This document shows, one piece after another, positions 31,970-45,940 of a DNA stretch of 64,000 bases (position 1 is the first letter of the stretch; every line of letters starts with the position of its first letter). The DNA comes from an uncultured Slackia sp. (GTDB lineage Bacteria > Actinomycetota > Coriobacteriia > Coriobacteriales > Eggerthellaceae): the NCBI RefSeq assembly GCF_944321625.1, contig NZ_CALUMA010000029.1, forward strand, positions 1 through 64,000, in the 5' to 3' direction. The position numbers and the translations under genes are program-made. The notes under the pieces are model-generated. The model had not been told where the DNA came from, did not search any database, and saw nothing but the letters and a program-made list of their open reading frames with translations.

Positions 31970-32000
31970 TTGCATGACCCGCAGAGACGCATGCTATAAT
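31970..32000 (+). promoter_or_regulatory. Promoter of the convergent small RNA, locus 1
   Basis: TTGCAT at 31970-31975 and an extended -10 TGCTATAAT (TATAAT at 31995-32000). The small RNA is predicted to begin near 32006. Confidence 0.65.
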
Positions 32001-32005
32001 GCAGC

Positions 32006-32091
32006 TGACCAGCGAAGCCCGGTATGGGTTTAGTGGCGGGCGGAGCCGGTCTGACGATTAGAGAGCCTGGTTGCCGCCAGGCTCTTTTGTT
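32006..32091 (+). ncRNA. Candidate antitoxin RNA, locus 1
   Basis: About 85 nt from a strong promoter to a terminator hairpin (AGAGCCTGG / CCAGGCTCT followed by TTTTGTTT). Its first 50 nt fold by hand into a stem: GACC, then GC, then a GAA/GGA internal loop, then GCCCG/CGGGC, closed by GGTC. Its 3' part is complementary to the last codons of the 48-aa peptide gene on the other strand. The same arrangement recurs at 45.7 kb. It contains no ORF with a start signal. Confidence 0.6.
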
Positions 32092-32204
32092 TCTTCCGAC
32101 TTCATCTGCTTTTGTGCTTTATATTTCCCCCATAGGCCGAGCAAGAACTCGCCTATGCTGGCTACCGCAGCCAGGGCACTGAGAATTTCGAGAACGATGT
32201 TCAT
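32058..32204 (-). CDS. Small hydrophobic peptide, candidate type I toxin (locus 1)
   Basis: A 48-aa peptide too short for ordinary gene calling. It begins MNIVLEILSALAAVAS and has one hydrophobic helix up to Trp25 with a single Glu19, then a basic/polar tail (KYKAQKQ). The last nine residues are encoded within the terminator hairpin of the convergent RNA. The 41-aa peptide at 45604 shares MN-hydrophobic-LEIL, the Ala/Val core, the Trp and the basic tail, which argues that both are translated. A TACAAT box (32268-32273, minus strand) and GGAAAGAG precede it. The layout recalls Fst/Ldr-type membrane toxins, but no close similarity to those was recognised. Confidence 0.65.
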   Translation of the reverse strand: MNIVLEILSALAAVASIGEFLLGLWGKYKAQKQMKSEETKEPGGNQAL

Positions 32205-32231
32205 GGGACTTCACTCTTTCCAAGAGGATAA

Positions 32232-32273
32232 GGCTCCGCCCCGCACGCAGACTTCGCTGGTCGCACAATTGTA
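32232..32273 (-). promoter_or_regulatory. Promoter and structured leader of the locus 1 peptide mRNA
   Basis: A -10 box TACAAT at 32268-32273 is followed at 32262-32232 by GACCAGCGAAG...GGGGCGGAGCC. This is the same motif that starts the convergent RNA, so the locus is bounded by inverted copies of it. Confidence 0.55.
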
Positions 32274-43707: not shown

Positions 43708-44985
43708 TTAGTGACGCTTGGCCAAATCGGCGTATTCGGGGAAACAATCAAGCGTTGTGAAGTAATCCGCCGGCGTTTCGGCGCGACGGATGAGCTGGGC
43801 CGTTCCGTTCTCGCGCAGCAGCACCTCGGCGCTGCGGAGCTTGCCGTTGTAGTTGTAGCCCATGGAGTGCCCGTGCGCGCCCGTGTCGTGGATGACCAGC
43901 AGATCGCCCATATCGATGCGGGGCAGCGCGCGGTCAATGGCGAACTTGTCGTTGTTCTCGCACAGGCCGCCCACCACGTCGTAGGTGTGGTCGCAGGGCC
44001 AATCCTCCTTGCCCGCCACCGTGATGTGGTGATACGCGCCGTAGATGGCCGGGCGCATCAGGTTGGCCGCGCATGCGTCCACGCCGATGTACTCCTTGTA
44101 GATATGCTTCTCGTGAATGGCGCGCGTGACCAGGCAGCCGTAAGGGCCCATCATGAAGCGGCCGAGCTCGGTGTAAATGGCCACGTCACCCATGCCGGCG
44201 GGCACCAGCACCTCCTCGTACACGCGGCGCACACCCTCGCCGATCACGCGGATGTCGTTGGGTTCCTGCTCGGGCGAGTAAGGAATGCCCACGCCGCCCG
44301 AGAGGTTGATGAAGCTAATGTGCGCGCCCGTTTCCTCCTGCAGGCGAACGGCCAGGTTGAACAGCACCTTTGCCAGCTCGGGGTAGTAGTCGTTGGTCAC
44401 GGTGTTGCTGCAGAGGAAGGCGTGAATGCCAAAATTCTTGGCGCCCTTGGATTTGAGGATGCGGAACGCCTCGAACAGCTGCTCGGTGGTCATGCCGTAT
44501 TTGGCATCGCCGGGGTTATCCATGATGCCGTTGCTGATCTTGAACAGACCGCCCGGATTGTAGCGGCAGCTGATGGTTTCAGGGATGTGCCCGATGGTCT
44601 GCTCGAGGAAATCGATGTGCGTGATGTCATCCAGGTTGATGATGGCGCCCAGCTCATCGGCCAGCGCGTAGTCGGTCGCTGGGGTCTCGTTGGACGAAAA
44701 CATCAGGTCATGGCCGTGTGCGCCGCACGCGTCGGCCAGCATGAGCTCCACGCCGGTGGCGCAGTCGCAGCCGCAACCATACTCGCGAAGGATGTTGATG
44801 AGGAACGGGTTGGGTGTTGCCTTGACGGCAAAATACTCGCGGAACCCAGGATTCCATGCGAACGCATCACGCATGGCCTCCATGTTGCGGCGAATACCGG
44901 CCTCATCATAGAGGTGGAACGGCGTAGGAAACTGGGCCGCGATGGCCTCCATCTGCTCTTTTGTGGCGAAGGGCTTCTTCTCCAT
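43708..44985 (-). CDS. lysA: Diaminopimelate decarboxylase
   Basis: Decarboxylates meso-DAP to L-lysine. A 425-aa fold-type III PLP enzyme. The PLP lysine is in FAVKATPNPFLI, SGGVGIPYS gives the phosphate-binding glycines, and the C-terminal barrel has CENNDKFA and GAHGHSMGYNYNG. The start at 44985 (MEKKPFATKEQM) is favoured by domain position; an ATG 12 bases upstream is possible, and both have weak GA-rich ribosome binding sites. First gene of the cluster, behind a lysine riboswitch, a terminator and a palindromic hairpin. Confidence 0.95.
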   Translation of the reverse strand: MEKKPFATKEQMEAIAAQFPTPFHLYDEAGIRRNMEAMRDAFAWNPGFREYFAVKATPNPFLINILREYGCGCDCATGVELMLADACGAHGHDLMFSSNETPATDYALADELGAIINLDDITHIDFLEQTIGHIPETISCRYNPGGLFKISNGIMDNPGDAKYGMTTEQLFEAFRILKSKGAKNFGIHAFLCSNTVTNDYYPELAKVLFNLAVRLQEETGAHISFINLSGGVGIPYSPEQEPNDIRVIGEGVRRVYEEVLVPAGMGDVAIYTELGRFMMGPYGCLVTRAIHEKHIYKEYIGVDACAANLMRPAIYGAYHHITVAGKEDWPCDHTYDVVGGLCENNDKFAIDRALPRIDMGDLLVIHDTGAHGHSMGYNYNGKLRSAEVLLRENGTAQLIRRAETPADYFTTLDCFPEYADLAKRH

Positions 44986-45056
44986 AGGTGTGCGCATCTC
45001 TCTTTCTCTTGCTGTGCGGCGGCTGGCGATGTTTATAGGCGGCTGTAGCATCTACT

Positions 45057-45180: not shown

Positions 45181-45220
45181 GAATGTCACGCGCGACCCGC
45201 CGCAGACGAGCCTTCAGCAA

Positions 45221-45377
45221 GATAGCGCACCTGCGTAATGCCGCAGACAGTCCTGCAGGTGTTTCCCACAGGCCCACCCGGAACGCCGCGCCCGGCGCCC
45301 GAATTCGGCGAGCTCGCCCCGCCCTGGCATCGTAGCCTGCCGGCTCCGCCAAGGGTCATCTCGCTCGCGCCTCTATC
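45221..45377 (-). ncRNA. Lysine riboswitch (L box)
   Basis: 157-nt leader on the lysA strand. Conserved pieces in order: GATAGAGGCGCG at the 5' side, GAGATGA, a GGCGAGC...CGCCGAA segment, the GGGTGGG...GTGGGAAACAC arm, ACTGTC, and finally GCGCTATC which pairs with GATAGAGGCGC to close P1. This order matches the Thermotoga and Bacillus L boxes. With the adjoining terminator it should switch off lysA-dapA when lysine is abundant. Confidence 0.9.
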
Positions 45378-45538
45378 GTCGTTCGAAAGTACCGCTTGAG
45401 CGCGATGGAGTCAACAATGAAACGGCAGGCTGCATGAAAAGTAACCTGTTTGCAATATGACGCATAAGAATGCAGGGTGAGCTCTCATAAATATGGGATG
45501 TGTTGGTTGTGGCCCAACGGGCTGCCCAAAACCACTGT

Positions 45539-45579
45539 TAGAATCAAATTGCCAGCGAAGTCCGAGTTGCGGGCGGCGC
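45539..45579 (+). promoter_or_regulatory. Promoter and structured leader of the locus 2 peptide mRNA
   Basis: A -10 TAGAAT at 45539-45544 is followed by TTGCCAGCGAAGTCCG...CGGGCGGCGC (45549-45579). The motif folds as GC, GAA/GGC internal loop, GTCCG/CGGGC. The same sequence begins the convergent RNA on the other strand. Confidence 0.55.
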
Positions 45580-45603
45580 TTCTTGAGAGAGGAGTGTTCG
45601 CCT

Positions 45604-45729
45604 ATGAACTTGTTTCTTGAAATCCTGAACTGCCTCGCCTCAGTGGCGACCGTAGCTACACTTGCTCTTGAGCTTGCCGAGCTATGGCGGGACCATAAGC
45701 AACAACAAACGGATGACGAAGGGAGATAG
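45604..45729 (+). CDS. Small hydrophobic peptide, candidate type I toxin (locus 2)
   Basis: A 41-aa peptide starting MNLFLEILNCLASVAT, hydrophobic to about residue 28 with two Glu near positions 23 and 26, then Trp and a charged tail (RDHKQQQ). It is clearly related to the 48-aa peptide at 32058. AGAGAGGAG lies about 11 bases before the ATG. An upstream in-frame ATG at 45493 would add 37 residues across the structured leader and is not credible. It ends just before the shared hairpin at 45731-45757. Confidence 0.65.
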   Translation: MNLFLEILNCLASVATVATLALELAELWRDHKQQQTDDEGR

Positions 45730-45730
45730 C

Positions 45731-45815
45731 GGAAAGCCCGGCGGCAACCGGGCTTCCTAAATCGTTGACCTGCGCCGCCCGTAACATTGTAAGACCCACA
45801 CGGGCTTCGCTGGCA
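45731..45815 (-). ncRNA. Candidate antitoxin RNA, locus 2
   Basis: About 85 nt, convergent with the 41-aa peptide gene. An extended -10 TGGTATACT (plus-strand 45821-45826) precedes it. The 5' half pairs as GTTG-CC, AGC, GAA/GGC loop, GCCCGT/ACGGGC, closing with GG and CAAC. It ends in hairpin GGAAGCCCGG / CCGGGCTTTCC. The U-run is weaker than in locus 1. Confidence 0.58.
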
Positions 45816-45940
45816 ACATCAGTATACCATGCGCTTGCAAACCGAATAGCGCAGTCGATAAAGAAATGTATAATGCGCAGGACTCATTTTTTACAGGATG
45901 ACCTGCCGAAAAAGTACGAAATCACACCCGAAGGACGCCC

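Follow-up and report, generated by a model that had tools for sequence, protein, structure and literature searches.

Do a 48-aa peptide gene on one strand and a small RNA gene facing it on the other, in the genome of an uncultured Slackia sp., form a toxin-antitoxin pair, and by what means would the one control the other? The two lie on contig NZ_CALUMA010000029.1 (assembly GCF_944321625.1), of which positions 1 to 64,000, here termed the window, were analysed; they make up locus 1 (~31,992-32,273), and a homologue, locus 2, is at 45,538-45,826. An initial annotation, made from the letters alone, had pointed to locus 1, with a one-helix peptide gene on the minus strand and a small RNA on the plus strand, and to a homologous locus in the window, and the features that it named are all present. 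It had proposed a candidate new type I toxin-antitoxin locus. This is still the best-supported reading (with a probability of about 0.8, locus 1 is a member of a new type I family that is lineage-specific to Coriobacteriia), but the small RNA proves related to the catalogued Collinsella-1 RNA, and the family is large, not a matter of two loci. Most likely the small RNA keeps a membrane peptide switched off. Comparison among relatives shows the peptide frame, the promoters, the terminator of the small RNA, a hairpin over the Shine-Dalgarno sequence, a 5′-3′ pairing and a pairing with a box in the open reading frame (ORF), as elements predicted for the family.

The small RNA, RNA II, is predicted to be an antitoxin of ~86 nt (32,007-32,093, plus strand; 76 bits with R1, a covariance model built on RNA II). 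Its extended -10 promoter, TGCTATAAT (31,992-32,000), was correctly picked out in the initial annotation, and ~86 nt then lead to the terminator. TANNNT occurs at this position in 92 of 100 relatives and is preceded by TGn in 74 of the 100. The RNA has a conserved 5′ hairpin (32,009-32,046, plus strand), which, read on the opposite strand, forms the toxin mRNA's 3′ arm, and ends with a stem-loop and U-tract (32,062-32,092) that is U-rich on the plus strand only. The -10 box for the toxin mRNA, TACAAT, is at 32,268-32,273 on the minus strand. Such boxes at both ends, mostly 7-9 nt ahead of a conserved arm, are found in 92% of loci versus 5% and 16% in control windows. The terminator had been described as clean and as coinciding with the 3′ end of the peptide ORF. 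The hairpin and its U-tract do overlap the final codons of the 48-aa ORF, but they serve RNA II only: the U-tract at the ORF-end hairpin is on the RNA II side (6.2 T versus 3.25 T; 87 of 96 loci), so that the hairpin would be poor as a shared or bidirectional terminator. RNA II would thus end there, with the mRNA probably continuing through the RNA II region.

The predicted toxin of locus 1, MNIVLEILSALAAVASIGEFLLGLWGKYKAQKQMKSEETKEPGGNQAL (48 aa; 32,058-32,204, minus strand), has one helix, a tryptophan and a charged tail. Across the family the peptides are 30-49 aa long with a charged tail, the hydropathy of the best 17 residues has a median of 1.99, and tryptophan follows the helix in 31 of 43. 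The frame is under purifying selection, the median ratio of nonsynonymous to synonymous rates (dN/dS) being 0.27 over 162 pairs, which are partly non-independent and come from loci selected for having an ORF. Changes at codon positions 1, 2 and 3, counted in disjoint pairs, are 154, 122 and 245. Frames not conserved among relatives had been named beforehand as an outcome that would count against the locus; the frame survived the comparison. Profile searches with the peptide in Pfam, NCBIfam, PHROGs, PADLOC and the PDB gave chance-level matches only. The peptide is a putative toxin. [Peptide subfamilies at four loci (L157, L160, L171 and L237, the last with MPIWEILVALAFSALAADSPTVIDRLARLALAAWRRWKKHKRE) are far from the consensus, the anatomy of RNA II being still common to them.]

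The observation at locus 1 is genuine and far from chance, as had been supposed from the presence of a second copy; beyond purifying selection and the paired -10 boxes, this is apparent from its distribution. Of 138 genomes from the taxonomic family of this Slackia, 60 have R1 matches, at 1-6 copies each; for many of the matches, E < 1e-15. Clear members have in common two -10 boxes, an anti-Shine-Dalgarno hairpin, a one-helix peptide of 30-49 aa and a convergent RNA of ~85 nt that has a separate terminator. The RNA II family extends to other families of the order, and in the remaining phylum R1 matches are at chance level only. A protein search over 100 relatives already revealed the locus-1 anatomy in many genomes. 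Named genomes with the exact RNA pattern include those of Adlercreutzia, Enterorhabdus, Gordonibacter, Slackia, Senegalimassilia, Rubneribacter, Collinsella and Atopobiaceae, some with tandem copies; matches to the exact pattern outside Coriobacteriia may be due to chance. No family match was found in the plasmids and phages searched, nor any match in the genome contigs searched with a single peptide. [The sole pattern match on a viral contig (L267, IMGVR_UViG_3300025009_000320, 1977-2073) scores 20 bits with R1, which is too weak, and is probably chance.] Several loci have flanking genes in common and a chromosomal position conserved between genera. [Three of them in two genera (L007, L034 and L047) share their flanking genes and lie just upstream of an apparent leuB-like gene; there is no intrinsic terminator in between, and the toxin mRNA may run into that gene.]

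The end repeats of locus 1, CCAGCGAAG(C/T)C(C/T)G and GGGCGGAGC, are inverted and not direct, as the initial annotation had it. Judged by their substitutions, they very likely form the two sides of a long-range pairing within the toxin mRNA, the 5′ arm (CCAGCGAAGTCTG ... GGGGCGGAGCC) being at 32,232-32,260 on the minus strand. Family-wide, arms match in cis better than across sibling loci within a genome (982 versus 958±5.4). Where they differ, 85 cells leave a G.U in the sense transcript and 12 give an A.C, against expected counts of 121 and 52; transversions number 11, where 42 would be expected. The identical differences would be mismatches in the RNA from the opposite strand. With mismatches that are almost always G.U-compatible in the mRNA only, it is very probably the mRNA that folds, 5′ end to 3′ end. 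By direct count, 98.3% of cells are paired, and nine pairs of positions show double changes, in 52 cells versus 11.3±6.0 after shuffling (0 of 500); the arms were found by consensus similarity, which inflates the overall pairing but not the covariation. There are four subfamilies whose arms differ (CCRGCRAAGUCCG; CCGGCGGUGUCCG; GCUGGUARGUCCC; GGCAGUGCUCGCC), each complementary to its own 3′ arm.

Arm position 10 is U.G in 52 of 52 rows and never the stronger C-G, likely because the 5′ segment can also pair elsewhere, with a CGGAU box close to the end of the ORF. This box is conserved at the nucleotide level, even beyond the stop codon where so placed. In locus 1 it is CAGAU (32,104-32,108, minus strand) and its partner in the 5′ untranslated region (UTR) is GUCUG, compensatory to the CGGAU/GUCCG found elsewhere. 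The pair GUCCG/CGGAU becomes GUCUG/CAGAU in locus 1 and L142, GUUCG/CGAAU in L013 and GUCCC/GGGAU in L037, L044 and L153, and counts for GUCCG/CGGAU pairs are 278 versus 270±1.1 shuffled. An adjoining helix shows abundant covariation (GUGC/GCAC, UUGC/GCAA, UCGC/GCGA, ACGC/GCGU and UGCGC/GCGCA; 561 versus 470±11 shuffled); its locus 1 element is GCAC at 32,114-32,117 (minus strand), which pairs with GUGC of the 5′ UTR. [The box was placed on the full alignment; anchoring on GACGAAGGG misplaced it.] Since arm pairing and box pairing use the same 5′ bases they are mutually exclusive, and a switch is implied. The ribosome-binding site of locus 1, where the Shine-Dalgarno sequence is weak, is predicted from a family-wide test and the fold of the locus to be sequestered by a hairpin in the 5′ UTR (32,205-32,242, minus strand). 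A Shine-Dalgarno hairpin is near-universal and locus-specific (-14.24 versus -12.86±0.24 kcal/mol for chimeras).

How these elements could work together may be pictured as follows. The minus strand would give an mRNA of ~255 nt for a small one-helix membrane peptide, the putative toxin, with its ribosome-binding site held in a hairpin, as covariation suggests. A helix of ~23 bp between the 5′ and 3′ ends, again going by covariation, would close this mRNA on itself in a stable form, as for hok and aapA. The rival pairing of the 5′ segment with the CGGAU box, also covarying, would probably be that of the nascent or 3′-trimmed message. From the plus strand would come the ~86-nt Collinsella-1-like RNA, with full complementarity to the mRNA 3′ end. 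It necessarily also has the same sequence as the 5′ arm, with which it competes for that 3′ end. Pairing of RNA II with the mRNA in the cell would displace the 5′ arm and free it to take the closed form, locking the start site, and by analogy with SR4/bsrG and RatA/txpA the duplex would be open to decay by RNase III. We lean, with less assurance than for the type I assignment itself, to the fuller picture in which antitoxin and toxin-mRNA 5′ end have the same sequence and compete for the mRNA 3′ end, with a third site inside the ORF; in which Collinsella-1 is the antitoxin; and in which solo copies of the RNA are kept after loss of the toxin.

The RNA half of the family is homologous to Collinsella-1 (RF01700), an RNA already catalogued. 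Collinsella-1 appeared in a 2010 table (Weinberg et al., PMC2864571) as a probable RNA that is not cis-regulatory, with neither a function nor a partner gene assigned to it, and no further paper naming it turned up in the literature searched. Against a cut-off of 35 bits (matches were found with permissive thresholds), the RF01700 scores for RNA II of relatives are 48.8 for L238, 44.8 for L231/L077, 43.3 for L009, 43.2 for L143, 37.8 for L043 and 36.2 for L219; L143, L238, L231/L077 and L219 had no part in building R1. The Rfam consensus, when aligned, carries the -10 box GGUAAAAUCA, the 5′ hairpin, CGGGCaACGCAgg and the terminator hairpin, and differs in that upstream helices of the Collinsella-1 model precede the RNA start predicted here. 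A clear peptide ORF faces RNA II in L238 and L009; there is none in L077/L231 or L079.

The peptide is absent beside ~20 of ~100 RNA II genes and present beside ~75. Promoter and fold are intact in these solo RNAs. At one orthologous site L065 is a full locus, and L107 is without promoter, UTR and peptide through a clean deletion that spares RNA II; the comparison of L122/L118 with L109 is similar. A solo in the Slackia genome itself (G000:C14:4977-5076(-); L143, L269) has the toxin-side -10 box and CCAGCAAA joined straight to the terminator, with the peptide gone. In other copies the frame or start is broken (L047, L017). Conversely, a peptide-profile search gave no clear orphan peptide, the candidates checked turning out to be divergent loci that are paired, apart from one broken copy (L271); solo RNAs were sought with the RNA model and solo peptides with a peptide model, and the counts are not strictly comparable. 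Retention of the RNA with loss of the peptide is the one-sided loss that a toxin-antitoxin pair predicts, an indirect argument. [One solo RNA, L111 (G103:C1:2248889-2248994), is unique among the loops in that its loop, CCTTCGTCATCC, exactly complements the consensus box of the toxin mRNA, GGATGACGAAGG. L065, the only toxin detected in that genome, departs slightly from this box, and L111 is possibly a trans-acting variant.]

The peptide could instead be a regulated, non-toxic small membrane protein, a stress modulator for instance, which the antisense RNA merely tunes. Its toxicity is a prediction, it resembles no known toxin, and several loci have a chromosomal position in common across genera, as housekeeping genes do. 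But loss hits the peptide and retention favours the RNA, broken frames and starts occur, up to six divergent paralogues per genome together with tandem copies are typical for toxin-antitoxin loci, and two translational locks would be unusual for a benign protein, all of which leaves this alternative unlikely. It is less likely still that the RNA is the main functional unit, a Collinsella-1-like trans-acting RNA to which the peptide ORF was secondarily attached, the solos being ancestral. The existence of ~20 RNA genes that stand alone, their promoter and fold intact, the description of Collinsella-1 as stand-alone (PMC2864571) and the exact complementarity of L111 to the toxin-mRNA box are in its favour. 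However, the peptide accompanies most copies (~75 of ~100), the solo at the orthologous site is due to clean deletion of promoter, UTR and peptide, that in the Slackia genome retains a remnant of toxin promoter and arm, and the mRNA arms covary with the RNA. A mobile element of the miniature inverted-repeat transposable element type, with two promoters by accident, would have the inverted repeats at both ends and the several copies per genome, but was rejected as scarcely credible on the covariation of the arms in cis: copies that share a genome have diverged strongly, and their arms match within a copy and not between copies, the wobble asymmetry requires RNA pairing, sites are conserved across genera, and deletion of the toxin half can leave the other end in place.

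Several points count against a new type I family as the answer for locus 1. The peptide has no match to any known toxin family among those scanned, and the two transcripts, their ends and the toxicity of the peptide are all predicted. An mRNA terminator downstream of the 3′ arm is not conserved, with an intrinsic terminator in 10 of 69 loci. Predicted accessibility of the Shine-Dalgarno sequence is near equal in full and trimmed messages (0.23 versus 0.17) and does not separate out a translated form. Finally, the window's own two loci are below the RF01700 threshold, and the link to Collinsella-1 thus runs through family relatives.

Locus 2 has the opposite orientation to locus 1, with 71.5% identity over 165 nt (E 1e-11) and 37% between the peptides. 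Its toxin mRNA, on the plus strand, has a -10 box TAGAAT (45,539-45,544), a 5′ arm (45,552-45,579), a predicted anti-Shine-Dalgarno hairpin (GCGCTTCTTGAGAGAGGAGTG..., 45,576-45,603), a predicted toxin of 41 aa, MNLFLEILNCLASVATVATLALELAELWRDHKQQQTDDEGR (45,604-45,729), and a GCAAC plus CGGAU box (45,699-45,714) with 5′ UTR partners GUUGC and GUCCG. RNA II on the minus strand (45,724-45,816; 78 bits with R1) has its -10 box, TATACT, at 45,821-45,826 and its terminator hairpin at 45,731-45,757. Locus 2 is directly behind a lysine riboswitch (75 bits, 45,215-45,383, minus strand), itself upstream of a diaminopimelate decarboxylase-like gene (43,708-45,051). At the gathering threshold, Rfam gives for the whole window this riboswitch and one tRNA only. 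Elsewhere in the genome is a further, divergent toxin locus, L274 (G000:C47:28303-28407(-); sisters L275 and L276), the arms of which, GGCAGUGCUCGCC / GGCGGGCGCUGCC, are still complementary.

As far as the literature searched shows, this large family was not previously described, its RNA half being catalogued as an orphan, and no paper on type I toxin-antitoxin systems of Coriobacteriia was found there. If the assignment is true, an RNA family orphan since 2010 gains a partner and a likely function, and a large chromosomal type I family is added for Coriobacteriia (Adlercreutzia, Enterorhabdus, Gordonibacter, Slackia, Senegalimassilia and Collinsella), which are common gut bacteria. With ~75 paired and ~20 toxin-less loci, competing mRNA folds and retention of the antitoxin after loss of the toxin become directly testable.

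Several features of the type I class are seen here at the sequence level: a selected small hydrophobic ORF, an antisense RNA gene that has a promoter and a terminator to itself and is complementary to the toxin mRNA, and a predicted, covarying mRNA structure that hides the ribosome-binding site. A layout like par/fst had been suggested. The convergent arrangement of toxin mRNA and small antisense RNA is indeed that of par of pAD1, as is a 5′ hairpin over the Shine-Dalgarno sequence, but the repeats, very likely being mRNA arms, do not make the locus an odd par variant. In place of the direct repeats DRa/DRb of par/fst, all aligned loci have inverted ones, with the consequence that the two RNAs begin with like, not complementary, sequences, and the shared bidirectional terminator of par/fst contrasts with a U-tract confined to the RNA II side. 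The one-helix peptide with tryptophan between transmembrane helix and charged tail (the 31 of 43) is like Fst/Ldr (PMC7472228, the source for the Fst/Ldr features compared). In contrast, the [PDST]xxxG motif of the Fst/Ldr majority is in 1 of 43 peptides, and neither the Fst/Ldr family profiles nor Pfam gave a match. As profile, motif, repeats and terminator all differ, the family is not filed under Fst/Ldr; the peptide, which had not been recognised as Fst, Ldr or TxpA, is outside Fst, Ldr and every family scanned.

The mRNAs of hok and aapA have 5′-3′ pairing and metastable Shine-Dalgarno hairpins (PMC6733600), and the covarying long-distance pairing and local anti-Shine-Dalgarno hairpins predicted here are like those of hok/Sok and aapA/IsoA. 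Unlike in those systems, it is to the 3′ arm of the mRNA and not the start region that the antisense RNA is complementary, the peptide is unrelated in the scans made, and 3′ processing, the step that activates translation of such mRNAs, is here hypothetical. There is no sequence similarity (Pfam/NCBIfam) to the B. subtilis systems txpA/RatA, bsrG/SR4 and yonT/SR6, from which the present family also differs in that antitoxin and mRNA 5′ arm have sequence in common. SR4, the antitoxin of bsrG, binds at the 3′ end of its target mRNA and also alters the structure of the distant ribosome-binding site (PMC5848175). On these comparisons the family would work like a type I system that joins mRNA folding of the hok/aapA type to a 3′ overlap of the RatA/SR4 type.
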